30,198 nt of DNA from a virus. The position numbers and the translations under genes are program-made. Below, one piece after another: positions 1-18,644 of this stretch. Position 1 is the first letter of the stretch. Each line of letters begins with the position of its first letter. The notes beneath the pieces were generated by a model. The model made no database searches. It saw only the letters and a program-made list of their open reading frames with translations, and was not told the origin of the DNA. Location of the stretch: positions 1 through 30,198 of the IMG/VR virus record IMGVR_UViG_3300043427_000550, one strand, 5' to 3'.

Positions 1-233
1 TCGTGATCATATGAAAATAAGACTTCACAATCAGATTTGCAAAGTGCCTTTACAAATGTTTCATAACAGAAAAGTAAATTTCCAGTATCCATATGCAAAT
101 CACTTTCGGTATATTCGGTCTCTGAAAAAAATTTTTCCCATCGATATCCAGAAGACTCATCCCATCCTATATCAGAATATAGTCCTATAGTGGGACCCAT
201 AATATAATCAATATCAATACTTAATACTCTCAT
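1..233 (-). CDS. Hypothetical protein, 3' end cut by the window edge
   Basis: The reading frame starts with ATG at 231-233 and stays open to base 1, giving about 77 residues beginning MRVLSIDIDYIMGP. The N-terminus looks like a first beta strand followed by an acidic DID motif, as in Rossmann or arginase-like folds. Further on it reads GNLLFCYETFVKAL and ends FSYDHD at the edge, rich in aromatic and acidic residues. I do not recognise the family with certainty. A remote relation to UPF0489-type proteins is possible but is only an impression. It follows the Sm-like gene at 243-488 with a 9-base gap, so it probably belongs to the same transcript. Its length is unknown because the rest lies outside the window. 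Confidence 0.65.
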   Translation of the reverse strand, partial: MRVLSIDIDYIMGPTIGLYSDIGWDESSGYRWEKFFSETEYTESDLHMDTGNLLFCYETFVKALCKSDCEVLFSYDH

Positions 234-242
234 TTTATATTA

Positions 243-488
243 TTAGAGTAAAGAATTATATTTATCCAATAGTTCTTTTTTTGGATCTACAATGGTTATA
301 ATTTTATCGGAATGAATCATAAAAGAATTTTGAGTTGTATACTCAAATAGCCAAGGAGAAATTGTTCCATTATCTTCGACAACATATGGATCTACAAGTT
401 TACAATCTGGTTCTCCTAGTTCTGATCCAACTTCTTCAATTTTAGAAATCAACAAAGTTTTATTCAACAATACAATTATTTTAGTCAT
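243..488 (-). CDS. Sm-like small protein (paralogue 1)
   Basis: An 81-aa protein that appears to be a diverged Sm-like (LSm/Hfq-fold) protein, of a kind found repeatedly in cyanophages. It shares with its upstream neighbour at 485-793 a central PW pair (SPWLF) and a nearly identical C-terminal strand and helix: IITIVDP, then LL, then Y. The first strand pair is degraded: the usual SGE turn reads NKT here. Its ATG overlaps the stop of the upstream gene (ATGA at 485-488), so translation is probably coupled, and the pair looks like a tandem duplication. Function is unknown. Sm-like folds usually form rings that bind RNA, so a role in phage or host RNA handling is an inference only. Confidence 0.7.
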   Translation of the reverse strand: MTKIIVLLNKTLLISKIEEVGSELGEPDCKLVDPYVVEDNGTISPWLFEYTTQNSFMIHSDKIITIVDPKKELLDKYNSLL

Positions 489-793
489 TCAAAGTAATCC
501 TCAGTTTCTGCATTAACAATATCCCTCTGATAAATTTCTAAGATCTTATCAATAGGATCTACGATAGTAATAACCCAATCATTTGGAATAGGTATTTGTT
601 TTGTTTTTGTTAAAGGAGCCCAAGGGAAGAGAGTTATCTTAAATGCATCTTCTTCAGAATCATTTTTCTTAAGATTAACAGTACATGGTTTTTCCAGAAA
701 ATATCCAATTACTTTATCATTTTCGGAAACCATTTCCTTTATTTCGGAGACAATATTTTCTCCGGACTTTAGCATTATAAGTTTTATAGACAT
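485..793 (-). CDS. Sm-like small protein (paralogue 2)
   Basis: A 102-aa protein with the full signature of the cyanophage Sm-like family. The first strand pair is MSIKLIMLKSGENIVSEI, with a GE turn. An FPWAPL motif sits near residues 57-62, and the C-terminal VITIVDP strand leads into a short helix ending in Y. The same pattern occurs at 4522-4809 and, more weakly, at 15736-16125. A sigma70-type promoter (815-843) lies just upstream, overlapping the hsp20 terminator, and would start a transcript about 15 bases before this ATG. This gene therefore probably heads a new transcription unit. An RNA-binding ring function is inferred from the fold, not shown by sequence. Confidence 0.8.
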   Translation of the reverse strand: MSIKLIMLKSGENIVSEIKEMVSENDKVIGYFLEKPCTVNLKKNDSEEDAFKITLFPWAPLTKTKQIPIPNDWVITIVDPIDKILEIYQRDIVNAETEDYFE

Positions 794-814
794 TAGTACT
801 CCAATTCTCTAATA

Positions 815-843
815 ATTCTAGCAAGAAAAAAAGGAGGAGTCAA
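815..843 (-). promoter_or_regulatory. Sigma70-type promoter for the Sm-like genes, embedded in the hsp20 terminator
   Basis: Read on the minus strand, TTGACT (838-843) is followed after exactly 17 bases by TAGAAT (815-820). These match the -35 and -10 consensus at 5 of 6 positions each with ideal spacing. The -35 hexamer lies in the left arm of the hsp20 terminator hairpin and the spacer contains its T-run, so one element ends hsp20 transcription and starts the next unit. Confidence 0.6.
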
Positions 844-866
844 CCTGGATTTTGCCAGGTGCTCCT
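824..866 (-). terminator. Rho-independent terminator after hsp20
   Basis: Plus bases 835-848 and 855-866 form a hairpin: AGGAG with CTCCT and ACCTGG with CCAGGT, one or two bulged bases, and a 6-base loop. The A-run at 826-832 becomes a T-run immediately 3' of the hairpin on the minus strand. It lies 25 bases past the hsp20 stop codon. Confidence 0.8.
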
Positions 867-890
867 CGCGCCGACGATATTCAATTCTAT

Positions 891-1331
891 TTAGAGGTAA
901 TCTTTCCTCTTATGATGATCAGGAACAATTCTACCAAGATTAATAGTCAAAAGCCCATCCTCAAAATCAACTGATCTAACTTCCGTATCATCAGAGAGTG
1001 TCCACGCTCTCTTAAAACTCCGTTGAGCCAAACCTTTGTGGATATAGTTGGACTCCGTTTCTTTATCCTCCTTTTGACCTTCCACAAAGAGTTTGCCGTC
1101 TTGTGTGTAGACATAGACTTCTTTTTTCTTAAATCCAGCAAGAGCAAGTTCCAATCTCGACTCTACATTACTGACTTGAACAAGATTGTATGGGGGATAG
1201 TTTGTTGTGGTTTCATGTAGGTGAAAAATACGATCAAAGTATTCATCCATTCCAATTGAATTGCGAGTGATCTTATCCATCAGCGCAGGAAGATCCGCAT
1301 GTGTAAACCGTGAGGTTACAAGGTTAGTCAT
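891..1331 (-). CDS. hsp20: Hsp20 small heat shock protein (alpha-crystallin family)
   Basis: A 146-aa small heat shock protein. After an N-terminal arm containing MDEYFDRIF comes the alpha-crystallin beta-sandwich (about residues 45-130). Visible motifs are NYPPYNL, then KEVYVYTQDGKLFVEG, then FKRAWTL and the late G-L-L-T-I-N-L strand that corresponds to the conserved A-x-x-x-n-G-v-L motif. Small heat shock proteins are ATP-independent holdases, and this gene is a near-universal accessory gene of T4-like cyanophages. A good Shine-Dalgarno (AAGGAGCT) precedes the ATG. It appears to be a single-gene unit: the regA terminator lies upstream (1408-1434) and its own terminator downstream (824-866). 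Its role in infection, such as capsid folding or protection of host photosystems, is not established. Confidence 0.95.
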   Translation of the reverse strand: MTNLVTSRFTHADLPALMDKITRNSIGMDEYFDRIFHLHETTTNYPPYNLVQVSNVESRLELALAGFKKKEVYVYTQDGKLFVEGQKEDKETESNYIHKGLAQRSFKRAWTLSDDTEVRSVDFEDGLLTINLGRIVPDHHKRKDYL

Positions 1332-1368
1332 TATGGTAGCTCCTTTTTAAAGCGAGTTTGTGTTTTGT

Positions 1369-1398
1369 GGATCCTTTCGGCATCCATTACTAATTATA
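1369..1398 (-). promoter_or_regulatory. Probable hsp20 promoter -10 box and leader hairpin
   Basis: A consensus TATAAT (minus strand, 1393-1398) lies just beyond the regA terminator, with no recognisable -35 at 16-18 bases. The predicted leader starts almost immediately with a small hairpin (1369-1385): GGAT-G-CC, a GAAA tetraloop, GGATCC, with one bulged G. This would cap the 5' end of the hsp20 mRNA. A role in stability or heat sensing is speculative. Confidence 0.4.
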
Positions 1399-1407
1399 CA
1401 AGATAAT

Positions 1408-1434
1408 AAAAAAAGACGGGTAGAGAAACCCGTC
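1408..1434 (-). terminator. Rho-independent terminator after regA
   Basis: A perfect 6-bp GC-rich stem (GACGGG at 1415-1420 with CCCGTC at 1429-1434) has an 8-base loop. It is followed on the minus strand by a run of seven T. It lies about 60 bases past the regA stop and ends the replisome operon. Confidence 0.85.
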
Positions 1435-1494
1435 ATTTTGTAGCGTATATTCCGTATGTAGCGTGTCGCGCACGAAAGAGCGACATATTATATA

Positions 1495-1932
1495 TCAGAC
1501 TTCTTGTGATTTTTTCTTGGAACCAATGGTGTATTTGGTTTCTAGTACCCAATCGCCCTTATCCTTATAAGATAAGACTTTAATCTGATTTAGTGGTGCA
1601 ATATCAGCGATAGATTCATCCTTAACTACACTGATAAGACCCCAATCACAAAGTAAACGTGCAATTCTATTGCGACGCTGAACATCATTCACTGTAAGAT
1701 TTGCGTGCTTACCATCTAGGGCAAATAGTTCCTTAAAGTGAGTGATGTAATACTTGCCTTGCTTATGCAAAATATGGCAACTTTGATAGAGTTTTTTCTC
1801 TTTTCTTGATGCAACTCCGATACGAGTCAAAGTTTCACGAACTTTTAGAAAGTCATCAGGTTCATTAAGGATAACTTCCACCATCATATCAGGAGACCAG
1901 TTTACTTGTGGTTCAATAGTTTGATTAGTCAT
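1495..1932 (-). CDS. regA: RegA translational repressor
   Basis: A 145-aa homologue of T4 RegA (122 aa), an RNA-binding protein. RegA represses translation of many early T4 mRNAs, including clamp and clamp-loader genes, by competing at start codons. The family pattern is clear: MVEVILNEPDDFLKVRETLTRIGVASR, then LYQSCHILHKQGKYYITHFKELFALDG, then NDVQRRNRIARLL with the conserved basic stretch. The C-terminus is longer than in T4 and lysine-rich (GSKKKSQ). The ATG overlaps the gp62 stop (4 bases), keeping the T4 order gp62-regA. A terminator follows, so regA is the last gene of the replisome unit. Autoregulation is known for T4; no RNA target site was identified here. Confidence 0.95.
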   Translation of the reverse strand: MTNQTIEPQVNWSPDMMVEVILNEPDDFLKVRETLTRIGVASRKEKKLYQSCHILHKQGKYYITHFKELFALDGKHANLTVNDVQRRNRIARLLCDWGLISVVKDESIADIAPLNQIKVLSYKDKGDWVLETKYTIGSKKKSQEV

Positions 1933-2297
1933 TTTGTTCCGCCAGTTTCAAGTCGTTGTTTAATAAAATTAAGTTGTTCTTTATTTAGAATCTTCAAAGC
2001 TTGAGATGCCTTTTCATTACTATAACCATAGTACTGTTTTACGCATTCTAAATCTTTGATTTTATCTTTTCGGAGCCAAGGAGAAAATCTCTTCTTTTTC
2101 CTCAGACTATTTAGGTAAAATGAATACTGCATATCTTTATCTAGATGATGATTCATATTCATTTCATTAGAAAAAAGAACACAGTCAATATTACCAGACA
2201 GGCATTTATTAATAATGTATGGGGGATAGTTCTTGATGTCTTCAGACAAATCTTCCTTTGTAAAATTAATAGAGTTTAACCATTCTTTTAATTCCAT
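1929..2297 (-). CDS. gp62: Clamp loader small subunit gp62
   Basis: A 122-aa protein recognised as the short cyanophage form of gp62, the partner of gp44 in the T4-type clamp loader that places the gp45 ring on primer-template DNA. Identity is supported by position directly before regA. It is also supported by the family pattern: YPPYIINKCLSG near residue 25, a DKDMQYSFYLNSLRKKKRFS stretch around residue 55, and a C-terminal SNEKASQALKILN helix. T4 gp62 has 187 aa, so this form is about a third shorter. Unlike in T4, gp44 is not adjacent: a block of six other genes (2314-4809) lies between the two subunits. The T4 loader uses four gp44 and one gp62. Confidence 0.85.
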   Translation of the reverse strand: MELKEWLNSINFTKEDLSEDIKNYPPYIINKCLSGNIDCVLFSNEMNMNHHLDKDMQYSFYLNSLRKKKRFSPWLRKDKIKDLECVKQYYGYSNEKASQALKILNKEQLNFIKQRLETGGTK

Positions 2298-2313
2298 AAT
2301 TAATTCTCATCTA

Positions 2314-3087
2314 CTAACAAAATGTTTCTGGATGTACGTGCAACTTTTTATCGTTCCAAGATTTATACCATTCGGATGTTATTTTCTTTTTATGATTATC
2401 GATATCATCCGCACTCCAACTTAAATTTAATCCTCGAAAAAAAGAAAACACAAACAATCTCAGTTCTTCTTCGCGCAATTCTGGAAGTTTGGTTAAACTA
2501 TATTTCAATTTTATTTTATTGTAAATCTGCTGAAAAGATTCGTTTTCTTCGCTGTTGATATAACCAACAATCAATTGGTGCTCTAATGGCCATATCCACA
2601 TCTTTTCACAAATAATATTTTTTAAAATATTACGAGAGTATTTTGCAATTTCATCCCAGGTTTCTGTTTCATAGTGATCTAGAAGAAGAGTATCACATTT
2701 ACCCTTATATTCGTTTGCATCAACGTTAATAACTTCAAGTTCATCAAAAATTTGTGAATTAAATTTTTTATGGTATTCAATCAATTCATTTGATTTTTCC
2801 AGAACAACAACTTTAGAAACATTTTTCTTAGAAAGAATCCAAGATTCTCTAAGTGCAAATCCAAGACCAGTACAAATACACACTCCATCAGCAATCCAGT
2901 AATGAGAAAAAACTTCCCAAAGACTTTCCTTATATTTTGGAGAATAGGTTAACCATCTTTCTTCACCATTAAAGAGGCAGGCTTCAGATTTATCATTATT
3001 ATATAATACCTTTAAGTTATTTTTTTGGTCTTCAAACTCTACTACATTTGGTTCTACAAAACCAAAAAAATCAAGAAAGTTCTGCAT
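2314..3087 (-). CDS. SAM-dependent methyltransferase-like protein
   Basis: A 257-aa protein from the ATG at 3085-3087, overlapping the end of dam by 17 bases. A longer in-frame start at 3150 would add 21 residues and overlap dam by 80 bases, so it is less likely. Near residues 68-108 is a Rossmann-like pattern: hydrophobic strand VCICTGLGFALRES (a glycine loop), then SKVVVLEKSNELIEYH (strand plus acidic residue). It is followed by EVINVDANEY and CDTLLLDHYE. This order of motifs I, II and III resembles class I methyltransferases, particularly spermidine-synthase-like ones. No DPPY- or PC-type catalytic motif is seen, so the substrate is unknown. Its place next to dam suggests a modification role, but that is inference. 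Confidence 0.7.
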   Translation of the reverse strand: MQNFLDFFGFVEPNVVEFEDQKNNLKVLYNNDKSEACLFNGEERWLTYSPKYKESLWEVFSHYWIADGVCICTGLGFALRESWILSKKNVSKVVVLEKSNELIEYHKKFNSQIFDELEVINVDANEYKGKCDTLLLDHYETETWDEIAKYSRNILKNIICEKMWIWPLEHQLIVGYINSEENESFQQIYNKIKLKYSLTKLPELREEELRLFVFSFFRGLNLSWSADDIDNHKKKITSEWYKSWNDKKLHVHPETFC

Positions 3088-3913
3088 GAAGTTTATAATT
3101 AAAGAGTAAAAGTTCTTTACGTTGTTTTTGATCACGCATATATTCACCAACAGAACGCATAGTATAAGTCAAATCAAACTCAGCAGCGTTCCAGTTTTTA
3201 AAGCGATCTTTTACAAGTTGATCTGAGTTATAGCTAATCAATTGATCCATATTATTAGAGTCGCAATCAGCAGCAAACTTATCGTGATCAAATCCTTTGT
3301 GCATTGATCCCTTGTTCCCATAGAGATTATCCTTAATATCATAAGGAGGATCGAGATACATAAAAGCACCTTTGTCTCCATCCATCAGATAATCATAGGA
3401 GTAATTAGTTATACGCCAATTTGATATTAGCGTAGAATACGAAGGCAATTTTTCGATCCCTCGCATTGAAAAGTTGGAAATCGATGCCTGCTGTGAAAAT
3501 GATGAACTCTCTGTGAGACCACTGAAACTGCACTTATTGACAACATAGAAAGCCACAGCACGATCAATGCTAGGCAAACTTTGGTCATTAACTTGCTCCT
3601 TTGCTTTAAGAAAAAGTTCTCTTGCTAAGACGGGAGTATTGTTTGCTGTCTTTAACTCTACCAGTTTGTCTTTAAGATCAGTTCCAAAGATCTGAAGTTG
3701 CTGCCAGAAATTTACAAGTGGTTCATATAAATCATTTACCCAAATATCTAGGTTAGGATATTTCTTTGTGATATAAATCGCAACACTTCCTCCTCCAAGG
3801 AATGGTTCACGAAACTCATTATAATTACGAAGGTCTGGAAAGTAAGATCCCATCTTTTCACAAGCACGGGACTTACCACCAGGATATCTAAGAGGCGTTT
3901 TGAGGGATTTCAT
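3071..3913 (-). CDS. dam: DNA adenine (N6) methyltransferase, Dam/D12 class
   Basis: A 280-aa D12-class N6-adenine methyltransferase, the usual length of the family. Seen in order: TPLRYPGGKSR at residues 6-16, motif I PFLGGGSV at 38-45 (SAM binding), and motif IV DPPYD at 188-192 (catalytic). The target-recognition region lies between motifs I and IV. Between these is the helical stretch with NKCSFSGL, also typical of Dam proteins. The enzyme would methylate adenine in a short site. GATC is the usual target of this class, but the specificity cannot be read from the sequence. Phage Dam proteins can protect against host restriction or mark phage DNA. The start overlaps the upstream small gene by 26 bases, suggesting coupled translation. 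Confidence 0.92.
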   Translation of the reverse strand: MKSLKTPLRYPGGKSRACEKMGSYFPDLRNYNEFREPFLGGGSVAIYITKKYPNLDIWVNDLYEPLVNFWQQLQIFGTDLKDKLVELKTANNTPVLARELFLKAKEQVNDQSLPSIDRAVAFYVVNKCSFSGLTESSSFSQQASISNFSMRGIEKLPSYSTLISNWRITNYSYDYLMDGDKGAFMYLDPPYDIKDNLYGNKGSMHKGFDHDKFAADCDSNNMDQLISYNSDQLVKDRFKNWNAAEFDLTYTMRSVGEYMRDQKQRKELLLFNYKLHAELS

Positions 3914-4109
3914 AGTCTTTAGGGTGATACTTCAAATATTCAAAGAAAGTTAATTTCATTTCTTTCTGCGTCATTCCACAATGTTTTGCTGCCGCAGGTA
4001 AAGTCATTTTAGCACGAAATAAAGATTCATTCGCTTCTTTTACATTCTCTGGAGTAGTTTTTATTGGATGTTCAATTAGAGATGCCTTATTAATTTTGTA
4101 TGGATTCAT
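3888..4109 (-). CDS. Small protein with helix-turn-helix-like segment
   Basis: A 73-aa protein starting MNPYKINKASLIEHP. The central part, LPAAAKHCGMTQKEMKLTF (about residues 37-55), reads like a short helix-turn-helix: an AAA helix, a CGM turn and a recognition-like helix. Such segments occur in DNA-binding domains and also in unrelated phage small proteins. It is immediately upstream of dam and overlaps it by 26 bases, so the two are probably translated together. It may be a regulator or a DNA-binding partner, but I cannot assign a function. Confidence 0.65.
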   Translation of the reverse strand: MNPYKINKASLIEHPIKTTPENVKEANESLFRAKMTLPAAAKHCGMTQKEMKLTFFEYLKYHPKDYEIPQNAS

Positions 4110-4115
4110 TTCAAA

Positions 4116-4310
4116 TTAATCGTATAAATTCTGTTCTTGCTGTAACCTATCTATATGATGGTATATTGTTTTTTGAGAATATTGAAACTCTTTAAAACGC
4201 CTTGGATTATTTTTTTGCATTTTACTAAGCATATTAATCCAATCATAGCGTTTATCTATACTCCAACCATAATGGCGTTCATCATGAAACAAATCAAATA
4301 TAGAAACCAT
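4116..4310 (-). CDS. Small hypothetical protein
   Basis: A 64-aa protein, MVSIFDLFHDERHYGW at the N-terminus. It is rich in aromatic, basic and glutamine residues and predicted largely helical (WINMLSKMQKNNPRRFKEF, then a C-terminal IDRLQQEQ helix). The start codon overlaps the stop of the upstream membrane protein gene by one base (TAATG at 4308-4312), so it is coupled. A 6-base gap separates it from the next gene. I recognise no family. The good coupling signals and the compact operon are the main reasons to call it. Confidence 0.65.
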   Translation of the reverse strand: MVSIFDLFHDERHYGWSIDKRYDWINMLSKMQKNNPRRFKEFQYSQKTIYHHIDRLQQEQNLYD

Positions 4311-4519
4311 TACTCAAACTCCCTTGTTCGGTTCGTTTTAATTGTAGGAGTTTCATAAGGAACTACACAAGAAACAACAATTTCCATTGATTTGGAGGCA
4401 TCAGCCATCTCACGATATCCAGTACCAACATAAATCTGTCCACTAACTACAGCAATAGCGCAGACTCCCCAAAAGATATAATACCACTTTGCTTTTACTT
4501 GATGTGTAAGATTTTTCAT
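4310..4519 (-). CDS. Small single-pass membrane protein
   Basis: A 69-aa protein starting at the ATG 4517-4519 (MKNLTHQVKAKWYY). It has one clear membrane segment, about residues 12-30 (WYYIFWGVCAIAVVSGQIYVG), preceded by a lysine and arginine-containing tail. A soluble C-terminal part is rich in threonine and charged residues. The positive-inside rule places the short N-terminus in the cytoplasm. It starts 2 bases after the stop of the Sm-like gene that follows gp44. Function is unknown; a membrane protein lodged in a replisome operon is unexpected. Confidence 0.7.
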   Translation of the reverse strand: MKNLTHQVKAKWYYIFWGVCAIAVVSGQIYVGTGYREMADASKSMEIVVSCVVPYETPTIKTNRTREFE

Positions 4520-4521
4520 AT

Positions 4522-4809
4522 TCAAACAATTAACTTTTTACTTGGAGATTTGATCAAAGAAAACATTTGTTCATACTGCTCGACAATTTGCTCCTGTGTT
4601 TCGGAAATATAAACAACATATTTCTTAGAAATTTCTAGATCTACATTCCTATCTTTTAGAAGAGGAGACCAAGGAGCAAATCCCATTTGACCATTTCCTG
4701 TAGGAACAGCAACGATTGGATTTCGGATAACAATAGTATCCCTCAAATCCCCAACTTGGTCTGCAATAACATCTTCACCAGACCACATACGAATCAATTT
4801 TACGTTCAT
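4522..4809 (-). CDS. Sm-like small protein (paralogue 3)
   Basis: A 95-aa member of the cyanophage Sm-like family and the best-preserved copy in the window. It has MNVKLIRMWSGEDVIADQV (strand-turn-strand with SGED), NPIVAVP, the FAPWSPLL motif near residue 44, and KYVVYISETQEQIVEQY at the end of the fold. The pattern G-E-x-V/I, P-x-x-V, P-W, V-x-x-I, Y matches the copies at 243, 485 and 15736. It overlaps the stop of gp44 by four bases (ATGA), so its synthesis is tied to that of the clamp loader. RNA or protein binding is inferred from the fold; no target is visible. Confidence 0.85.
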   Translation of the reverse strand: MNVKLIRMWSGEDVIADQVGDLRDTIVIRNPIVAVPTGNGQMGFAPWSPLLKDRNVDLEISKKYVVYISETQEQIVEQYEQMFSLIKSPSKKLIV

Positions 4810-5750
4810 TTGAATTCACACTCCACCATAATTTCAGTTAATGCAGCAATAAGATTTATTTCTTGATCAGCCACGAATGCACATTGGTATTGATACTTAG
4901 CAATAACAAGAACAGCAGCGGGAATAGATTGGGGTAGAAGGTGATCAAAAGCGGCGTCATAAACCCTGCGAAGTAGATGAGAAGCGTCGTTGTCCAAGTT
5001 GCTGACCACCCACTTTCGGACTTCAGTAAAGTTTTTATCCTTGAGATTTTTAATAAGTTCATTTACAGATACGTCAGAGAAAGATGCAAGAATTCCAGAA
5101 TCAATTTTACCGCCAGTAGAATACCTTTGGATTTCGTTTAGAACACGTCGAAAATCGGGAAAGTGTTTCGATACGAGTTCCGCAACGACTTTTTCATCAT
5201 ACTCAATCTTTTCCTGATCGAGGATAACTCGTAACCTCTGAAAGAAATTCCCAGCGAGTTGCACTCGCTGCTTTCCCTTGATTGTAAAGTCGATGACGGC
5301 ACATCGGGAGTGAAGAGGTTCAATAATTTTGTTCTTGTAGTTACAGGTGAAGATGAATCGGCAGTTGTTATAAAATGCCTCAATATTCGCCCGTAGTAGG
5401 AGTTGTACGTCGTTGCCTGTGTTATCCGCCTCATCGATGATGATGACTTTGTGTTTAGAAGATCCCGTAAGTGAGACGGTCGAAGCGAAGTTCTTTGCTT
5501 GGTTCCGTACAGTATCCAGGAAACGCCCTTCGTCGGATCCGTTGATAACATAATAATCTGCTCCCAGTTCATTGCACAATGCTTTTGCAATGGTAGTTTT
5601 ACCAATACCAGGAGGTCCAGCAAGAAGAAGATTTGGAATCTCTCCCTTCTCTACAAACTCCTTAAATGTTTTTTTAGTATCATCAGGAAGAATACAATCC
5701 TCAATCACTTGAGGGCGGTATTTCTCCACAAAAAGAAATTCACTAGTCAT
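4806..5750 (-). CDS. gp44: Clamp loader large subunit gp44 (AAA+ ATPase)
   Basis: A 314-aa AAA+ ATPase, close to the 319 aa of T4 gp44. It loads the gp45 sliding clamp with gp62. Seen: N-terminal FLFVEKYRPQ, typical of clamp loaders; Walker A GPPGIGKT at 45-52; Walker B IIIDEAD at 103-109; sensor-1 region FIFTCNY; and the LHSRC motif (around 147-151) that holds the arginine finger of RFC-type loaders. A C-terminal helical collar domain follows. It lies 3 bases after the stop of the upstream gene and overlaps the Sm-like gene downstream. The T4 order gp45-gp44-gp62-regA is kept overall but is interrupted on both sides of gp44. Confidence 0.97.
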   Translation of the reverse strand: MTSEFLFVEKYRPQVIEDCILPDDTKKTFKEFVEKGEIPNLLLAGPPGIGKTTIAKALCNELGADYYVINGSDEGRFLDTVRNQAKNFASTVSLTGSSKHKVIIIDEADNTGNDVQLLLRANIEAFYNNCRFIFTCNYKNKIIEPLHSRCAVIDFTIKGKQRVQLAGNFFQRLRVILDQEKIEYDEKVVAELVSKHFPDFRRVLNEIQRYSTGGKIDSGILASFSDVSVNELIKNLKDKNFTEVRKWVVSNLDNDASHLLRRVYDAAFDHLLPQSIPAAVLVIAKYQYQCAFVADQEINLIAALTEIMVECEFK

Positions 5751-5753
5751 AAT

Positions 5754-6266
5754 TTAGACCCAATCAGGTTTGCGTTCAGGCATACGAAGATAGTTATCAG
5801 ACACCCAAGGTTTAGATGCAATGTATCTTTTGTACGCTTCAAATGTATCAATAGTTTCGTCAAACTTCCATTCCTCAGGCATAGCACGAGCAAATGGAGT
5901 TACTTCTGTAATCTTACCCTTAGGAAACAAATAGTATGCATCCACTAGGGTATTATAACAGGAGTGAGTTTTATTATACCGCAGGCAGTATTCATCAGAC
6001 AAGTTCAATCCCCACTTAATTAACCAGTAAGCATTATGGATGCTCTCCAGTGCCCACTTGGTACATGGATGATTGCGGAATGCTCCTTTCTCGGTCCTGT
6101 AGGGGGTTCCATCTGCCTTAGGAAGAGTGCCGTACCCATACCCCCACTTATCAGAGGCAACGATAGAGAGCATCTGACAGCACTCTAAGGGCATCTTAAC
6201 AATATGTTTGTCGGGCAAACAAATAGCACTTTCTGCAGGCCAAGGAGAAGTAACGAAGATGTTCAT
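5754..6266 (-). CDS. Conserved phage protein of unknown function (MNIFV family)
   Basis: A 170-aa protein starting at ATG 6264-6266. The start shares one base with the gp45 stop (TGATG). The N-terminus MNIFVTSPWPAESAICLPDK is followed by HIVKMPLECCQMLS and later NHPCTKWALESIHNAYWL. The spaced D-K-H, E-x-x-Q-M-L and H-P-x-x-x-W residues look like conserved active-site or metal-binding positions. I recognise the pattern from proteins of several large phages, usually annotated as hypothetical. A link to DNA repair or nucleotide metabolism is suggested only by its place between clamp and clamp loader. No membrane segment or signal peptide is seen. Confidence 0.8.
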   Translation of the reverse strand: MNIFVTSPWPAESAICLPDKHIVKMPLECCQMLSIVASDKWGYGYGTLPKADGTPYRTEKGAFRNHPCTKWALESIHNAYWLIKWGLNLSDEYCLRYNKTHSCYNTLVDAYYLFPKGKITEVTPFARAMPEEWKFDETIDTFEAYKRYIASKPWVSDNYLRMPERKPDWV

Positions 6267-6952
6267 CAACCAAATGTAGAATCAGGTTCCAGAGCAATAT
6301 GATAAGTCACATCAAATCCAGTATTCTTAAATCGTGATAAAAGTTTATTTGAAATTACAACCTCATAGTTTCCAGGAAGAATCTTAATGTTCTCTACCTT
6401 GAAATTGAATGAGAATACTTCATCGGTTTCACCAACAATTACTGAAAAATCATTGGATGTATCGTTCTTCTTATCACGAACAACAAGTTTGACCACACCT
6501 GCTTCACCAACCACAGACAAGTCAGGAAGTTGATAAACAGCAGCAGCCTTAAGGAGTTTATCAAGTTCTTTTGTATCAAGAAGGAAACAAACATCCTCAC
6601 TTGGTAGAACGATGTCTTTTTCTGGTGGAGTAATGATTACGTTGGGATCTGCAAAGAAATACTTTGAACGAGATTTACCTTCTTTAATAACAACATACCC
6701 ATCATTTTGAAAATCAAGTTCTGCATTTTGATGTAGATTTAGACCATTCAAAAATTGGTTCAGATCATAAATACCAAAATCTTTTGGTAGATCTTCTTCA
6801 ATCTTTGCTTCCGCAAGGATGTTCCGCATTACAGAGATTGTGCGAAGACTATTACCTTCCTTAAACAAAATTGATTGGTTAATTGAAGAAAAATTCTTTA
6901 GAAGAGTAAGAGTTTTATCAGAGAGTTTCATAGTTTTATCTTGGAGTTTCAT
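6266..6952 (-). CDS. gp45: Sliding clamp gp45
   Basis: The T4-type sliding clamp, which forms a ring that tethers DNA polymerase and, with gp33 and gp55, activates late transcription. T4 gp45 has 228 aa. Two in-frame ATGs exist. The one at 6950-6952 gives 228 aa; the one at 6929-6931 gives 221 aa starting MKLSDKTLTLLKNFSSINQ, which aligns directly with the T4 start MKLSKDTTALLKNFATIN. Further clamp-like features are the N-terminal strand-helix pattern, LDTKELDKLLKAAAVYQLPD in the middle, and a C-terminal EVVISNKLLSRF strand-helix. The two ATGs sit in a 21-base tandem duplication. The gene overlaps the preceding DUF3310 gene when the longer or a TTG start is used. Confidence 0.95.
   Translation of the reverse strand: MKLQDKTMKLSDKTLTLLKNFSSINQSILFKEGNSLRTISVMRNILAEAKIEEDLPKDFGIYDLNQFLNGLNLHQNAELDFQNDGYVVIKEGKSRSKYFFADPNVIITPPEKDIVLPSEDVCFLLDTKELDKLLKAAAVYQLPDLSVVGEAGVVKLVVRDKKNDTSNDFSVIVGETDEVFSFNFKVENIKILPGNYEVVISNKLLSRFKNTGFDVTYHIALEPDSTFG
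6911..6952 (-). repeat. 21-base tandem duplication of the gp45 start
   Basis: On the minus strand the first seven codons encode MKLQDKT and the next seven MKLSDKT. The two 21-base units differ at only three positions, within one codon (CAA against TCT). Both contain an ATG, so gp45 has two equivalent start sites in tandem. Confidence 0.8.
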
Positions 6953-6954
6953 GA

Positions 6955-7455
6955 TCAATATGGAAAATCAGAAGTAGTATTCTTATGTAGACCTGCAAAA
7001 TGATAAAGAAGAATGCAGTAATGGATTGCTTTCAGAATATCCATTTTCGATTTACCATTCTTTTTACCAAAACGAGACAGATACTTGATAGCATTTGATC
7101 GCGTGAATGGTTCAGCATCACCAATGCTTTCAATCAAATCTAGAGTTTGAGTTTTGGATTCTTGAGAAGTATAGTGTTGGTGATAAGTGCTAGAAAGATA
7201 CTGCTCAATCTCTTTCAGAGTTTTATCTTCTTCATATTTCCAGAAACCATTCTTGTTAGTATCTTCAGTCATTTTAATAGTAAAATTTGAGAGTGAAATG
7301 TGATCATCGCCTAGTCCATCAGCAAGGCGAGAACCAGTGAACGTAATAGTATCTGGAGATGGGTAAGGATTTCCAGTCATACTAATACCATCATACTCCC
7401 AGAAATCTTGATTTGGAATTGTACTTTCGTAAGTGCTCTCAAAGTTTTCAGACAT
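6955..7455 (-). CDS. DUF3310-domain protein
   Basis: A 166-aa protein. The C-terminal part (about residues 91-153) fits the DUF3310 pattern of phage proteins: a YHQHYTS-type entry, a predicted helix LDLIESIGD, then NAIKYLSRFGKK and DILKAIHYCILLYHF. Family members are common in phages and are sometimes annotated as nucleotide-kinase-like, but no Walker motif is present here and the role is unknown. The N-terminal 90 residues are polar and Ser/Thr/Asp-rich with no recognised domain. The start has no Shine-Dalgarno but the context ACAAAATGTC. The gene heads the replisome unit, directly after the cobS terminator, and overlaps the gp45 region. Confidence 0.85.
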   Translation of the reverse strand: MSENFESTYESTIPNQDFWEYDGISMTGNPYPSPDTITFTGSRLADGLGDDHISLSNFTIKMTEDTNKNGFWKYEEDKTLKEIEQYLSSTYHQHYTSQESKTQTLDLIESIGDAEPFTRSNAIKYLSRFGKKNGKSKMDILKAIHYCILLYHFAGLHKNTTSDFPY

Positions 7456-7476
7456 TTTGTTTCATAGTAAAAGGAC

Positions 7477-7503
7477 AAAAAGAGGAGGCACATTGACCTC
7501 CTC
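7477..7503 (-). terminator. Rho-independent terminator after cobS
   Basis: A perfect 7-bp stem (GAGGAGG at 7482-7488 with CCTCCTC at 7497-7503) has an 8-base loop and is followed on the minus strand by TTTTTG. It lies 8 bases past the cobS stop codon and separates it from the replisome genes. Confidence 0.85.
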
Positions 7504-7511
7504 ATATTCTA

Positions 7512-8603
7512 TCAGGATTGTTGCTCCTGGTCAACGGGAAGTTGGAAATCAGCATCAACCTTATCATACAGTTCGATGAAAGCTTGTTTGGTTTCATCAT
7601 CAAATCGTGCGGTACATACATCAATCGCCTTTGCTTTGTTACCAAAAATGCTGTAAGCACGGATGATATGAACCAAGCGGCGGGTGCTGATGATTTCCTC
7701 AATACCACCATCGTAGAAGGTCTTGCGGATGATGTCTGCCCAGTCAACCAAACGCTTACAGAAGTCACGATCCTCCACACCAAGGTCCAGAGAGATGCCC
7801 TCAAGGATCTTCTGCTCGGTTGCAGGGGCAGGATACTGCTGCTCAAAGGTCACAGGGAAACGCTCCAGGAATGCCTCATTCAGAACGTTAGTGCCGATAA
7901 AGCGTCCATCATCAGAACCTTTACCCTTGGTGTTGGCGGTGGCGATAACGTTGAAACCAGCAGCAGGTTTCACAAACCGACCAATCTTCTTCAGAAAGAC
8001 ACCCTTACCCTCTAGCACGGATTGTAGACAAAGGATTTTGTTGGAGGCAAGGTCAATCTCGTCAAGGAGCAGGATCGCTCCGCGTTGGAGGGCTTCAATA
8101 ACTGGACCGTTATGCCACACAGTAGCACCATCAACAAGGCGGAATCCACCAATAAGATCGTCTTCATCAGTCTCAATAGTAATGTTTACACGAATCAGTT
8201 CACGATTAAGTTGAGCACACGCTTGTTCAACAGAAAACGTTTTACCATTACCCGAAAGACCCGTAATGAACGTAGGATAAAAAAGGCGGGACTGAATAAT
8301 TTTTTTAACATCAGCAAAATTACCAAACTTGACGAAGGTATCATCTTTATCAGGAATGAGATTTTGTTCTACAGGAGGAACCACTGCGGGTGCTTGATAA
8401 GTACGTTCGATTTCTTCTACCTTTTGTTGAGTCACTTCAAGATTCCATTTACCACGACTAGTTTTAAATTCATCAATTTTCTTAGTTACCGTCTGATAGT
8501 TAGCATCATTCATATTACACCAGGCACGGATATCTGCACTGGTAACATTGTTACCATAAAGTGCCTGGAGGGAAGTGCGGATGTAATCAGAGGAAAGAGA
8601 CAT
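7512..8603 (-). CDS. cobS: CobS-like / MoxR-type AAA+ ATPase
   Basis: A 363-aa AAA+ ATPase starting at ATG 8601-8603. The N-terminal region (1-85) is helical. The AAA+ module follows: Walker A GLSGNGKT at 115-122, RVNITIETDEDDLIGGF at about 138-154, Walker B ILLLDEID at 177-184, sensor 1 IATANTKGKG at 220-229, and LNEAFLERF at 241-249 with the arginine-finger region. The layout matches CobS, the ATPase subunit of aerobic cobaltochelatase, and the broader MoxR family. Cyanophages carry this gene widely as cobS. MoxR ATPases work with VWA partners, and a VWA-zincin protein lies just upstream. A role in inserting cobalt into corrin is not shown by sequence; a chaperone role is equally possible. 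It is its own unit, with terminators on both sides. Confidence 0.9.
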   Translation of the reverse strand: MSLSSDYIRTSLQALYGNNVTSADIRAWCNMNDANYQTVTKKIDEFKTSRGKWNLEVTQQKVEEIERTYQAPAVVPPVEQNLIPDKDDTFVKFGNFADVKKIIQSRLFYPTFITGLSGNGKTFSVEQACAQLNRELIRVNITIETDEDDLIGGFRLVDGATVWHNGPVIEALQRGAILLLDEIDLASNKILCLQSVLEGKGVFLKKIGRFVKPAAGFNVIATANTKGKGSDDGRFIGTNVLNEAFLERFPVTFEQQYPAPATEQKILEGISLDLGVEDRDFCKRLVDWADIIRKTFYDGGIEEIISTRRLVHIIRAYSIFGNKAKAIDVCTARFDDETKQAFIELYDKVDADFQLPVDQEQQS

Positions 8604-8628
8604 TGGTTTGTTTTGTTTCAACTCCGTT

Positions 8629-8634
8629 ATTATA
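8629..8634 (-). promoter_or_regulatory. Candidate -10 box for cobS
   Basis: A consensus TATAAT on the minus strand lies 26 bases before the cobS ATG and immediately after a strong terminator. The -35 is poor (TTGATG at 15 bases, inside the terminator loop), so the call rests mainly on the -10 and on the need for a promoter after the terminator. Confidence 0.4.
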
Positions 8635-8638
8635 GAGC

Positions 8639-8662
8639 AAAAAGGGGGGCATCAATCCCCCC
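8639..8662 (-). terminator. Rho-independent terminator between the VWA unit and cobS
   Basis: A 6-bp all-GC stem (GGGGGG at 8644-8649 with CCCCCC at 8657-8662) has a 7-base loop. It is followed on the minus strand by five T and then GC. It is 6 bases past the stop of the 61-aa gene and is one of the strongest terminators in the window. Confidence 0.88.
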
Positions 8663-8667
8663 AGTGG

Positions 8668-8853
8668 TCAGTTCGCCAACTGGTTCCGTAGTTGGTCTAG
8701 ATGATTCTGTGTAGCAATTCTTCCAATGTATCCTGGGTAATACTTTTCAACTAGAGATGGAATACCCATAGCACTTATGCTGCTAGAACATTTGATCCAT
8801 ACTTCTTTGGTATCGTATTTTACTACGTGTTCAAATGGAAATTTAGTTTTCAT
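8668..8853 (-). CDS. 61-aa hypothetical protein coupled to the VWA gene
   Basis: A 61-aa protein, MKTKFPFEHVVKYDTKEVW at the start, followed by KCSSSISAMGIPSLVEKYYPG and ending GRIATQNHLDQLRNQLAN. Its ATG overlaps the stop of the VWA gene (ATGA at 8850-8853), so it is translated by coupling. No catalytic motif, membrane segment or metal ligand pattern is visible; one cysteine is present. Because it sits between the VWA protein and the CobS-like ATPase it may be an accessory subunit or adaptor of that pair, which is inference from position only. Confidence 0.7.
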   Translation of the reverse strand: MKTKFPFEHVVKYDTKEVWIKCSSSISAMGIPSLVEKYYPGYIGRIATQNHLDQLRNQLAN

Positions 8854-11066
8854 ACGACTAAAGAAATAAACTCACCAAGAACTTTCTTATTTAGTTTTTT
8901 AGTCTTAAGAGATTTGACGAATGCAGTTTTAATTTGAGATTTGGTAGCATCCTCAGAAACTTCAAATTCAGAATCCTGTGCAAGGGCTGTTGCAGACATT
9001 CCGAAGTAAGCATCATATCCAGAGTTAGTGATAGTGAAACTACGCAGTTTCTTCCAATCACTTTGAATTTTATCCCACTGCTTATCAGTTGAAGGATGAT
9101 ATAGTTGAATGAATCGAATTGCAGAACGAGGTTCAAGAACACGAATTCCAATAAAATTAATAGAAGAAAACTTATCCTTCAAATTTTTAAGAAGCGTATC
9201 TGTAAAGGCATGATATCCATAACCAACTTTGTAAGTGGTTCCAAGTTTACGGTCACGAAGGAAAGTATTTTCGGGGTAAATATAACCAGTTCCAAGGACA
9301 GGATCTTTGGAATAATTACGATTAACCTCTTTGTGATAAACAAGTTGATTTGCTTCACCATCAGTCAGAACAATGCACTGAACTTTCTGGAGTTTATTTT
9401 CTTTCTGGAACTTAGGAAGAATTTGATGGAGAGAAATCAATGCTTCATTCAGAGGAGTTCCTGAAAGAGACATACGATTGGAGTATGTGTAAGGAGAATG
9501 ATAAGACCTACCAAAGCAATAAGCAAGACGCCAAATATTCAACAGTTGATGCTCCAGTTCTTTACCATTCACTTTACTGGTAAGAATATTCATCATAGAG
9601 AAAGTTTCGTCTACCAGTAGCAGACCTTCTTTCTTTTCATAGTGAGGAGTGCGATCTGCAGCAAGATGCTTACCAGTTTCATAGTCATACTCACCACGAC
9701 GCCATTCATTCGTGAAGGCATATACTTCAAAAGGAATAGAAACTTTTTTACAGAACCACACCAGATTGAAGAGTTGCTTACAAGTATCAATCATCACATC
9801 GGACATAGAACCACTCCAGTCCAACACAAACACCAGACCATGATTCTTACCGTCAGGAATCACAGAAACCTTCTTGAACAAATCTTCGTTGTACTTATAG
9901 GTATGAAGACGAGCAGTATCAAGAACTCCAGTGCGAGCAGTTGATGCACGAGCATACTGGTCTGCTGCCTTACGACACTCAAACTCTTTTACAAGATAAT
10001 TGACTTCCTTTTGAGCAGAAGACTTGAACTTCTTAAACTCAGTATCAGATTCTTGGTAAAGATTTGTTGGTGTAATTTCTTTATCTTTTGCCCATGCGTT
10101 ATGTATATTTTGTTGGTTGGAGAATGAATAATTAATTTCTTTATGGACATCAAAGTTCTTAGCAATAACAGTATCAAGATTCAATTGAGGAACTTGAATA
10201 TAGATAGTTTCGTATGAGTCATTATTAACGAGATCACGAATCTTTTCTTCCAAAGAATCAGCAGTGCGAACTTCAGGTTCATTATCTTCACCAGAAGATT
10301 TCACTGGAGTTTGATCTCCCTGAGCAGTTCCACCATAGGACCCATCATTCTCTTGAGGTTGAGAGTTATTATTCTCACCATCTTGTTCAGAAGAGGAGTC
10401 ATTCGTCTCTACAATCTCATTAGCAGGAGACTGAGAATCTCCTTGCATTTGATGAGAATCAAATTCAGCAACCTTTTGTTCCTGTTCCTTTTCTTTCTTA
10501 CAATACTTGTAGAGTTCTTCTGCAGCAATCAGCACATCAGCAAAGGTTTCAGTATCGGCAATCAAGTTGACGATCTCAGTTTCTTCCCCACGCTGAATAG
10601 GAATATTGATATAATTTCCAATCTTAAACCACAAGTTAGCGCGATCAGCAAGATTAAACTTAGAGATATTTTCTTCTTTGATTTGGAAGAAGTCATCCTC
10701 ATTCAACTCTTTATAACCATTGTAGAAAGTCTTTGCAAGTCCAGCATACTTGCGTTTCATTAGTTTCTCAATGCGAGCATCTTCAACAACATTCACAAAC
10801 TGTTGAGGAACTTTTACTTTCTCTAACCAATTCTCATCAGGAGTAAAGAGAGCATGACCTACCTCATGACCCACAAGAAGGTCATAGACGATCCCACTTG
10901 CCTTTTCCCACAGAGGAAGAGTCAGAACACGAGTATGAACATTGAAACAGGCAGTAGAGACTTTCTTATGCTCAACCACCAGATCCTCAGTAGCAAGCAG
11001 TTTGGCGAGTTGAGACTTGATTTCGTGGCGGATGGACATTGGGTTTGTTGCGTATGCAGGTATCAT
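8850..11066 (-). CDS. Zincin plus VWA-domain protein, CobT-like
   Basis: A 738-aa protein from ATG 11064-11066; a second ATG at 11037-11039 (MSIRHEIKSQ) would give 729 aa. Near the N-terminus it has HEVGH at 67-71 followed by NVVEDARIE at 92-100. This is the HExxH plus ED-x-RIE arrangement of zincin domains in CobT/VWA proteins. A long acidic, Gln/Ser/Asn-rich linker spans about 195-275. The VWA domain starts near 410 with the MIDAS motif DWSGS at 416-420, then SGTPLNEAL and VLTDGEA. This order (zincin, acidic linker, VWA) parallels CobT, the partner of CobS. Cyanophage annotations often call it a peptidase. It probably works with the CobS-like ATPase as a remodelling complex; protease activity is unproven. 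Confidence 0.88.
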   Translation of the reverse strand: MIPAYATNPMSIRHEIKSQLAKLLATEDLVVEHKKVSTACFNVHTRVLTLPLWEKASGIVYDLLVGHEVGHALFTPDENWLEKVKVPQQFVNVVEDARIEKLMKRKYAGLAKTFYNGYKELNEDDFFQIKEENISKFNLADRANLWFKIGNYINIPIQRGEETEIVNLIADTETFADVLIAAEELYKYCKKEKEQEQKVAEFDSHQMQGDSQSPANEIVETNDSSSEQDGENNNSQPQENDGSYGGTAQGDQTPVKSSGEDNEPEVRTADSLEEKIRDLVNNDSYETIYIQVPQLNLDTVIAKNFDVHKEINYSFSNQQNIHNAWAKDKEITPTNLYQESDTEFKKFKSSAQKEVNYLVKEFECRKAADQYARASTARTGVLDTARLHTYKYNEDLFKKVSVIPDGKNHGLVFVLDWSGSMSDVMIDTCKQLFNLVWFCKKVSIPFEVYAFTNEWRRGEYDYETGKHLAADRTPHYEKKEGLLLVDETFSMMNILTSKVNGKELEHQLLNIWRLAYCFGRSYHSPYTYSNRMSLSGTPLNEALISLHQILPKFQKENKLQKVQCIVLTDGEANQLVYHKEVNRNYSKDPVLGTGYIYPENTFLRDRKLGTTYKVGYGYHAFTDTLLKNLKDKFSSINFIGIRVLEPRSAIRFIQLYHPSTDKQWDKIQSDWKKLRSFTITNSGYDAYFGMSATALAQDSEFEVSEDATKSQIKTAFVKSLKTKKLNKKVLGEFISLVV

Positions 11067-11208
11067 AAAACGAAAGGTCGCCCTTCGGACGACCCATGTG
11101 ACGCTTTTTGAACTGGGCTAGTCTTGCTTTTGCTTGCCTCAGTGCTTGCGGTTTAAGTTTTCGTTTCTGATCCTTCTTGGAGTGATGCTGCCAATTTGGA
11201 GTGTTCAC
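10987..11208 (-). CDS. Small basic hypothetical protein, GTG start
   Basis: A 73-aa frame starting at GTG 11206-11208, with a Shine-Dalgarno GGGAG eight bases upstream. The N-terminal half is strongly basic: TPNWQHHSKKDQKRKLKPQA, then LRQAKARLAQFKKRH. It is followed by GRPKGD, reminiscent of an AT-hook-like GRP core. The terminator hairpin at 11067-11094 lies inside the frame and encodes that GRPKGD stretch. The last 25-35 codons overlap the start of the VWA gene and look less protein-like, so either the overlap is real or the frame is only partly used. It could bind nucleic acid. Confidence is moderate because of the overlap. Confidence 0.45.
   Translation of the reverse strand: MNTPNWQHHSKKDQKRKLKPQALRQAKARLAQFKKRHMGRPKGDLSFYDTCIRNKPNVHPPRNQVSTRQTACY
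11067..11094 (-). terminator. Rho-independent terminator before the VWA gene
   Basis: On the minus strand an 8-bp stem (GGTCGTCC with GGGCGACC, including one G-T pair) has a GAA loop and is followed by TTTCGTTTT. It ends one base before the VWA ATG at 11066. It probably ends transcription coming from gp46 and the sulfotransferase. Confidence 0.7.
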
Positions 11209-11277
11209 TTCACATTCTCCCACTAACCAAACTACAATACTATGTATCTGAGTGATTTAAAATTTTAGTGGACGGTT

Positions 11278-12117
11278 TTAAATCTGGTCCTCGTAAAAAT
11301 TTTCATAATACCATGGATGATCAAACATCATTTCCTCTTGAAGTTTTTTGGGCATAAAACTGAAGTCATATGGATCAAACTTTTCTAATCTTTCCTTTAT
11401 TCTATGATTACCATAAGGCAAAAATACCGTATCATTATAGTCAACCTGCTTAATATTATTCAAATCATGTCCATAAAATCTCTCTCCAAGATACTCCCAA
11501 ATAGATTCTAGAGTTTTTTCTGGATCTAAAATAAAATTCTCATACTTTACTATTTTTATTCTTTTCAAATATTCAGGACGAACATCTAGCATTTCCTTTA
11601 GGCATATTAGATTCTTTCTTATCATTCCAGAATCCATTAAAGATTTGATTCTAATTTTATAGAGATCTTCTTTATTATAATCATAATTTTGTTCACCAAA
11701 ATACATTTCATCCTTATAGCTCATCATAGTTTTCTTATGAACTTTCTCTAATGATGAAATTATTCCTCTTAAATCTCGAATAGTATAGATAATCTTTATG
11801 TCTGGGAATAGATTAAATAGAAAATCTAATTCATGAGACCAGCTTCTGCATTTATCAATGTAAATATCCGTATCGCAAATAGTATCAATCCAAGAATTAA
11901 CACCCGATCTACAAAAATTTTTAATTAAATCATAAGAAGTTTCAGCGTCATATTGAGATTCACGAACAGCATCAGTGAATTGATTTTGTGCTGATTGAAC
12001 TATCGATCCCAATATGGAATCTGGAGATATAGTAACATGTGGATTTTGATTTAATACATTCACTAATAAAGTGGACCCCGTTCTAGGAAGTCCACACATA
12101 CAAACAAATTTTCTCAT
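11278..12117 (-). CDS. Sulfotransferase family protein
   Basis: A 279-aa PAPS-dependent sulfotransferase-like protein. The N-terminal P-loop-like phosphosulfate motif is GLPRTGST at residues 9-16. Near residues 113-127 is IIYTIRDLRGIISSL, with the R-D-x-R and S residues of the 3'-phosphate-binding motif. The remainder is alpha/beta with many lysine, tyrosine and phenylalanine residues. Such enzymes move sulfate from PAPS to a hydroxyl or amine of carbohydrate, lipid or protein. The substrate cannot be read here. No signal peptide is seen, so it is probably cytoplasmic. The ATG overlaps the gp46 stop (ATGA at 12114-12117). By eye it is more AT-rich and more isoleucine/lysine/asparagine-rich than the VWA gene downstream, consistent with acquisition, though gp46 is similar. 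Confidence 0.88.
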   Translation of the reverse strand: MRKFVCMCGLPRTGSTLLVNVLNQNPHVTISPDSILGSIVQSAQNQFTDAVRESQYDAETSYDLIKNFCRSGVNSWIDTICDTDIYIDKCRSWSHELDFLFNLFPDIKIIYTIRDLRGIISSLEKVHKKTMMSYKDEMYFGEQNYDYNKEDLYKIRIKSLMDSGMIRKNLICLKEMLDVRPEYLKRIKIVKYENFILDPEKTLESIWEYLGERFYGHDLNNIKQVDYNDTVFLPYGNHRIKERLEKFDPYDFSFMPKKLQEEMMFDHPWYYENFYEDQI

Positions 12118-13826: not shown

Positions 13827-14091
13827 TGCTTTTAGTCAATTTTGGTGGAATTACAAGATCATTTTTTGTTATTATAGCATACTCATATCCATGAATATCG
13901 CAGGTTTTTATTAAGACTTCATCATCTACTTCTATAACGTTCATTAGGGGATAATCCTCCTCCTCCAACATTATAGAAAATCTCAACGCATCATCTTCTT
14001 CTTCAAAAATATAGAGTACACTATTTCCTTCTTCATTAACTACAGAATATGCACCTTCATCTTCTTTACCATAAATTGTAAGTATAAACAT
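13813..14091 (-). CDS. DUF3110-family protein
   Basis: A 92-aa protein that fits the DUF3110 pattern, a family otherwise known mainly from cyanobacteria and plastid-bearing organisms. Seen: an N-terminal strand (MFILTIYGKEDEGAYSVV), a VLYIFEEEDDALRFSIMLEEED helix in the middle, then a VIEVDDEVLIKTCDIHGYEY segment and a proline-rich end LVIPPKL. The EDDA-x-RF-x-x-ML-E pattern is the family core. Its function is unknown. It lies between gp47 (1-base gap) and gp46 (14-base overlap), so it is made together with the two subunits of the SbcCD-like nuclease. Presence of this family supports a cyanobacterial host. Confidence 0.8.
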   Translation of the reverse strand: MFILTIYGKEDEGAYSVVNEEGNSVLYIFEEEDDALRFSIMLEEEDYPLMNVIEVDDEVLIKTCDIHGYEYAIITKNDLVIPPKLTKSNDSI

Positions 14092-14092
14092 A

Positions 14093-15652: not shown

Positions 15653-15681
15653 ATTATAACATTTCTCCTCAGAGTTGACAA
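15653..15681 (-). promoter_or_regulatory. Sigma70 promoter for gp55
   Basis: On the minus strand TTGTCA (15676-15681) is followed after 17 bases by TATAAT (15653-15658). Transcription would start near 15646, giving an 18-base leader before the gp55 ATG. The -35 matches 5 of 6 consensus positions and the -10 all 6. It shares its -35 bases with the plus-strand promoter at 15675-15703. Confidence 0.75.
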
Positions 15682-15703
15682 CTTTAAAAATAATAACTAT
15701 AAT
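15675..15703 (+). promoter_or_regulatory. Perfect-consensus sigma70 promoter on the plus strand (antisense)
   Basis: On the plus strand TTGACA (15675-15680) is followed after exactly 17 bases by TATAAT (15698-15703), with all 12 consensus bases present. No plus-strand gene follows. The transcript would begin near 15710 and run antisense into the Sm-like gene at 15736-16125 and then uvsW. The -35 hexamer overlaps that of the gp55 promoter by five bases, so the two cannot be occupied together. Confidence 0.65.
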
Positions 15704-18609: not shown

Positions 18610-18616
18610 TATTTAG
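18610..18616 (-). promoter_or_regulatory. Late-type promoter box CTAAATA before the gp19-like gene
   Basis: CTAAATA on the minus strand starts two bases after the T-run of the terminator at 18619-18644 and lies 17 bases before the ATG at 18593. It is a one-base-shorter variant of the TATAAATA late box found elsewhere in the window. Confidence 0.45.
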
Positions 18617-18618
18617 AT

Positions 18619-18644
18619 AAAAAAAGAGGGCCCGAAGACCCTCT
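18619..18644 (-). terminator. Rho-independent terminator, UUCG type, after the 18648-18917 gene
   Basis: On the minus strand the stem AGAGGGTC pairs with GGCCCTCT (one G-T pair) around a TTCG tetraloop (18633-18636) and is followed by TTTTTTTAT. It overlaps the gene boundary: the stem ends 4 bases past the stop codon. It is nearly identical to the gp23 terminator 358 bases upstream. Confidence 0.88.

Follow-up and report, generated by a model that had tools for sequence, protein, structure and literature searches.

Does the short interval between the hsp20 gene and the gene of an Sm-like protein in this phage DNA merely end one transcript and begin the next, or does it hold a gene of its own? 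The window analysed here, the whole stretch of 30,198 bases, is a fragment in IMG/VR from a T4-like cyanomyovirus, whose core genes it carries on the minus strand. Cyanomyoviruses rank with the most abundant viruses of the ocean, and we know of few non-coding RNAs from them. Pfam and PHROGs recognised genes in the window for a terminase, the major head protein, a UvsW-like helicase and a UvsY-like mediator, together with a late sigma factor (15134-15628; phrog_234, E 7e-68), a clamp loader, a processivity factor, RegA and Hsp20. On the minus strand, the interval in question runs from the end of hsp20 at 891 to the start of the next gene at 793, and the comparisons described below suggest that its terminator is the tail of a previously undescribed, highly conserved, single-copy small-RNA gene that would be switched on late in infection. 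We put the probability of a small-RNA gene at this junction, with a promoter lying within its terminator, at about 0.78. The parts of the junction and its two flanking genes are as follows.

891..1331, minus strand: hsp20, the upstream gene, whose transcripts the same terminator would end (Pfam HSP20, E 2.8e-14; phrog_432, E 1e-55).
888..894, minus strand: CTAAATA, a box of the late promoter type that shares bases with the hsp20 stop codon (CTC TAA ATA); TAAATA is kept in relatives.
868..882, minus strand: conserved stretch GAATATCGTCGGCGC that opens the predicted small RNA, with a putative 5' end near G882.
834..867, minus strand: terminator hairpin GAGGAGCACCTGG-CAAAAT-CCAGGTTGACTCCTC, with a computed fold of about -20 kcal/mol and a loop conserved as CAAAAT or CACAAT.
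838..843, minus strand: -35 hexamer TTGACT, within the 3' arm of the terminator; TTGAC[AGT] in 142 of 164 promoter-matching relatives.
837-821, minus strand: spacer of 17 nt, read from the sequence, with the T-run inside it.
826..832, minus strand: intrinsic-terminator T-run, read from the sequence, and predicted 3' end of the ~57-nt RNA (882-826); its columns are highly conserved in relatives.
815..823, minus strand: extended -10 TG-C-TAGAAT (TAGAAT 820-815, TG 823-822); among relatives the 17-nt spacer is kept in 104/110 and TG in 100.
485..793, minus strand: gene that the embedded promoter would start, encoding an Sm-fold protein (phrog_431 / DUF6561; Pfam, PHROGs and AlphaFold).

The sequence-only reading had placed TTGACT in the terminator stem and the T-run inside a 17-base spacer leading to TAGAAT, and this arrangement was confirmed on the minus strand with its coordinates right. 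By itself the 10/12 promoter match was insignificant, as 42 promoter-like sites were counted against 53.5 expected over positions 1-15100; because the AT-rich window makes such a match weak alone, the promoter was taken as real from its conservation among relatives. A sigma70-like promoter matching at least 9 of 12 positions lay in the hairpin region of 110 of 120 unique relatives, which had been picked by the upstream motif only, with the promoter ignored, compared with 6% of controls made by order-1 resampling. A -10 placed 17 bases from a stem-embedded -35, the pattern that the earlier reading had proposed to search for in related genomes, therefore proved strongly conserved: among the 110 promoter-bearing relatives, 104 had the 17-nt spacer and 100 had TG before the -10. 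Column information was high across the -35, the T-run, TG and the -10 and fell directly past the last T of the -10, in a set that had been selected to contain TTGAC. By this comparison chance is excluded, and the predicted end of one transcript and the predicted start of the next are the same bases.

Pairing in the hairpin was kept while its arms varied. When the stem arms of the relatives were tabulated, 83 distinct combinations of outer arms were found with pairing kept, while the inner stem was mostly AACTGG/CCAGTT or CCTGG/CCAGG and the loop CAAAAT or CACAAT. The 3' side of the stem is bulged, and in 73 copies the bulge is GAC, the middle of TTGACA; the bulge was mostly GAC in promoter-bearing relatives, and where the promoter is absent it measured one or two nucleotides or was missing. 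RNAalifold on a MAFFT alignment recovered seven pairs only, a low number because bulges shift the arms, so that the arm tabulation is the better evidence. The overlap is an example of a -35 box held within a terminator arm, with a bulge that accommodates it in most promoter-bearing copies.

The earlier description of a compact terminator-promoter module held for these two elements, but as an account of the full unit it missed a late-type box and a conserved 5' motif upstream. In the window, CTAAATA is followed on the 5' side of the hairpin by GAATTGAATATCGTCGGCGC, in which the near-invariant motif is GAATATCGTCGNCGC. In a set of 102 unique relatives for which the hairpin was the sole criterion, TATCGTCGNCGC was conserved at 92-100% per column, and the 5' motif was present within 3 mismatches in 126 of 130 hairpin matches; it was mostly unpaired in computed folds. 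In most copies TAAATA lay 8 nt 5' of TATCG / TATCGTCGNCGC, and all cyanophage-type matches of the motif had TAAATA directly upstream, whereas chance matches in unrelated sequences came without TAAATA and without the hairpin. Matches in bacterial contigs included unrelated bacteria among those listed and were discarded, a similar number being expected by chance for 15 specified bases. The N of TATCGTCGNCGC was G, C or T, with A in 0/102 copies; an A at this place (region of 870 in the window) would make the palindrome GTCGAC, and possibly RNA dimerisation or a restriction site is being avoided.

The late promoter of S-PM2 is NATAAATA and that of T4 is TATAAATA (PMC2984593). Among the relatives the box was [C/A]TAAATA, near NATAAATA though not in every case identical to the published form, and CTAAATA in the window differs from it by one base; the sequence box expected of a T4-type late promoter is thus present, at a near-fixed distance in relatives. 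Since late box, motif and terminator are linked, they make up one unit of about 57 nt.

Copies that lack the embedded promoter were found in several phages. In S-PM2, Syn9 and S-RSM4 the late box, the motif and the terminator were kept while the -35/-10 was missing, and likewise in the S-WAM2 and S-PRM1 loci and in several IMG/VR contigs, which shows that the RNA part is separable from the promoter part. Six unique promoter-less copies had a late box within or right behind the T-run instead. In three IMG/VR contigs (L052, L109 and L111) it is a late promoter that is packed in this way, the terminator T-run of the predicted small RNA passing straight into TATAAATA (CCCCTTTTTATAAATA). In two further variants, L058 (about 565) and L087 (about 759), the motif was kept and a GTTGGCAAAATCCAAC-like hairpin was detached from the terminator, a -10 lying between the separate GGCAAAATCC hairpin and the terminator.

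Each of three pattern scans of IMG/VR found at least 120 stretches carrying the module, and a pattern with one fixed linker length gave 108 matches. In a separate blastn search with a 90-base query, 134 phage records matched, nearly all of them Synechococcus phages, and several matches were confined to the intergenic block while the flanking genes were different. With a covariance model, 22 of 25 complete cyanomyovirus records each yielded a single strong copy, and pattern searches agreed; within those 25 records the block was absent from P-SSM2, P-SSM4 and P-HM2 and is therefore not universal. The covariance-model match in T4 (E 0.23) was noise, and TATCGTCTCCGC in P-SSM4 and P-HM2 (1 mismatch) was found inside coding sequence and rejected as a copy of the RNA.

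The place of the unit changes from phage to phage. It lies between hsp20 and the Sm-like and gp43 genes in S-SM2, Sf-FR1, Bellamy and S-CAM1, before a gp214-type gene and psbA in S-IOM18, S-CAM22, Syn19 and S-RIM8, after psbA in S-PRM1 and in the gp212-gp213 interval in Syn9; the S-PM2 copy, about 55 nt long, sits behind hli03 and faces a convergent structural gene. In NC_008296 the Syn9 copy occupies 164,131-164,185, and in NC_006820 the S-PM2 copy occupies 124,970-125,027. The window copy adjoins core replication genes (hsp20/Sm-like interval), while in other phages the unit is found near hli/psbA. The downstream gene belonged to the Sm-like cluster for 133 of 175 copies, with the remainder spread over 16 other clusters (17 in all), and the upstream gene was hsp20 in 73 of 151 and otherwise one of many genes. 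As many copies occupy one orthologous place, before the Sm-like gene, the sequences are not independent.

Comparison across these phages establishes that the parts are conserved and linked, that the unit is single-copy, that its stems covary and that its RNA part survives where the promoter has been lost. The sequence signals of a small-RNA gene are all present, namely a promoter of its own, an intrinsic terminator, a conserved unpaired segment and a lack of coding capacity. A single-copy unit that begins at the late box and 5' motif and is kept without the embedded promoter argues for a small-RNA gene that shares its terminator with the promoter behind it, and the best reading of the predicted elements is that this terminator in most cases also acts as promoter for the operon that follows, which is most often headed by the Sm-fold gene. 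Late in infection a gp55-type late sigma would recognise CTAAATA, where hsp20 ends, and give rise to an RNA of about 57 nt. This RNA would start at or close to GAAUAUCGUCGNCGC, the 5' arm that stays mostly unpaired, and would finish with the terminator hairpin and its loop CAAAAU. The same hairpin would also terminate transcripts arriving through hsp20, and its 3' arm with the T-run would supply the -35 of a host-type extended -10 promoter, together with most of that promoter's spacer, for the downstream operon. We infer transcription from the late box, termination, late timing and a regulatory role of the predicted RNA from these sequence features. In phages of this kind, host-type promoters may reportedly drive middle rather than early genes, according to a study of Syn9.

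The strongest competitor, which we nevertheless consider unlikely, is that the junction is a composite terminator-promoter only, with a 5' motif that either extends the late promoter or is carried along for no apparent reason, and with no functional separate RNA. PeSLs (promoter-early stem-loops), in which T4-type phages combine promoter and terminator in one motif (Arbiol et al. 2010, Comeau et al. 2014, as cited in PMC4503421), are an established feature of that group, and the present element resembles them in joining a stem-loop terminator to a sigma70-like promoter at a gene junction. Such successions are also common in these genomes. In 1.39 Mb of cyanophage DNA, with the hsp20/Sm-like-type module left out, a -10-like or late box lay no more than 22 nt past the T-run at 64 of 84 (76%) unique intergenic terminators, against 239 of 1835 (13%) intergenic T-runs that lacked a hairpin (odds ratio 21, an approximate effect size because related loci are partly dependent and the ORF filter is crude). 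That terminator-promoter junctions are a recurring design, as had been suggested for this genome, is supported by these cyanophage counts. The four looser examples put forward with that suggestion gave a mixed picture. At 1369-1434 there is a terminator with an extended -10 TATAAT and no -35 match in the stem; at 8629-8662 TTGATG lies in the loop with 15-nt spacing to TATAAT; at 18610-18644 a terminator is joined to CTAAATA, a late-type promoter without a -35; and at 27480-27523 there is only a weak hairpin (-6.2 kcal/mol) with the late-type TAATAAATA. A junction that the sequence-only reading had not listed, at 18943-19002 on the minus strand in the gap that separates gp23 from the ORF at 18648-18917, consists of a terminator (19002-18983) and then a separate TTGACT-17-TATAAT (18971-18943).

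PeSLs are said to occur in many similar copies per genome, permitting recombination, and to sit in hyperplastic regions where genes are shuffled. The element at the hsp20/Sm-like junction has the conserved sigma70-like promoter of that class (TTGAC-17-TG-N-TATAAT) and a GC-rich predicted hairpin with a T-run that overlaps the promoter and has covarying stems; however, it is present in one copy, unlike recombining cassettes, and the other terminator-promoter junctions do not repeat its sequence. It differs further in holding the -35 inside the terminator arm, in being preceded by a late-type promoter and a near-invariant 5' motif, and in its usual position beside core replication genes. The 5' motif is also the most conserved part, is missing from the window's other terminator-late-promoter junctions and stays where the sigma70 promoter is gone, all of which speaks against a bare composite junction.

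That the element is a cis-acting leader or attenuator, with late transcripts from CTAAATA passing a regulated, riboswitch-like terminator into the downstream gene, seems very unlikely to us. Such a leader would look like what is seen here, a conserved motif with an intrinsic terminator behind it and, in most cases, one particular family next downstream; however, the downstream neighbour in S-PM2 is convergent, the downstream genes of 17 clusters imply that the block is no leader for one particular gene, and the mostly unpaired 5' motif showed no competing anti-terminator in folds. Marginally less probable again is a site that works as DNA, for instance as an origin of replication or in recombination or packaging, and contains promoters and a hairpin by coincidence. 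One copy per genome at a varying position would suit a DNA site, and T4 replication origins use transcripts; yet a late box at near-fixed distance, a U-run behind the hairpin and a transcript-like orientation are expected of an RNA gene, and a DNA site needs none of them. A short coding sequence (frame GAA TAT CGT CGN CGC = EYRRR, its sole freely varying base at a four-fold wobble position) is hardly credible and was rejected, because N is never A, the remaining wobble positions are invariant, S-PM2 has no start codon in this frame and reading frames close or diverge directly past the motif.

For the small-RNA gene, the most likely role of the predicted product is that of a trans-acting regulatory RNA with its 5' arm as the contact surface. 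A target search of complete phage genomes gave near-matches and complementary sites at or below the level of reversed-pattern controls, with no excess. A wider proposal, which we hold tentatively and regard as doubtful, is that of a late small-RNA family, widespread in Synechococcus-infecting T4-like phages, that acts in trans via the GAAUAUCGUCGNCGC arm on host or phage mRNAs and is paired with a phage Sm-fold protein whose operon starts at the promoter nested in the small RNA's terminator. If this were true, it would be a phage-borne sRNA/Sm-protein pair. An RNA motif that hardly varies, occurs once per genome behind a late-type promoter of its own and is kept in many genera while its place changes makes a clear experimental target.

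The AlphaFold model of the 485..793 product (pLDDT 91.9) has an Sm fold, a shared fold being no proof of RNA binding. Its best solved structural match was 3BY7 (Z 14.4, 1.3 A over 82 residues), followed by Lsm and Sm proteins at Z 7-8.4. The downstream operon in the window comprises the Sm-fold gene and a paralogue, and in annotated relatives DNA polymerase gp43 comes next. At least four related Sm-like/DUF6561-type proteins are encoded within the 30 kb, one with a Pfam Sm_like match, and their genes are listed below.

243-488, 485-793, 4522-4809 and 15736-16125, minus strand: Sm-like/DUF6561-type genes (phrog_431, 483, 527, 471).

Small RNAs of the Yfr group in marine picocyanobacteria are short host sRNAs with single-stranded conserved motifs. 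The predicted phage RNA has shortness and a single-stranded conserved motif in common with them (PMC2518516 as background), whereas the motif itself probably differs, in a comparison limited to Rfam. Against Rfam (4227 families, release 15) the window had no match at the gathering cut-off, and 815-895 had none even at E <= 10; weak STnc50 and ROSE_3 matches lay elsewhere in the window and were ruled out for the site. The cyanophage Rfam motifs wcaG, PhotoRC-II, manA and glnA are described as cis-regulatory 5'-UTR elements (PMC2864571, PMC9964418); like the present element they are conserved structured RNAs of T4-like cyanophages near hli and psbA, whereas the latter is a short motif plus a terminator hairpin with its own late box, unmatched in Rfam. 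Matches in related loci were to wcaG and PhotoRC-II only, and both wcaG (L344 551-645, Syn9) and PhotoRC-II (L020 1862-1954, S-WAM2) were observed ~1 kb or less from the predicted small-RNA gene. The CfrI antisense RNA of cyanophage S-PM2, also a non-coding RNA from a lytic cyanomyovirus, is about 225 nt long, cis-antisense and located between psbA and a homing endonuclease gene (Millard et al. 2010, described in PMC12197685), whereas the S-PM2 copy of the present element lies between hli03 and a structural gene. A literature search with the motif letters returned unrelated papers among the matches listed.

Two minor observations concern other parts of the window. A sub-threshold match to the heat-shock RNA thermometer ROSE_3 (1326-1389, minus strand; 24.3 bits vs a cut-off of 43, E 0.011), which includes AGGAGCTACCATAATG, adjoins the phage hsp20 on its upstream side. 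Upstream of the late sigma gene, at 15653-15703, there are overlapping divergent promoter-like sites, TTGACA-17-TATAAT on the plus strand and TTGTCA-17-TATAAT with TG on the minus strand.
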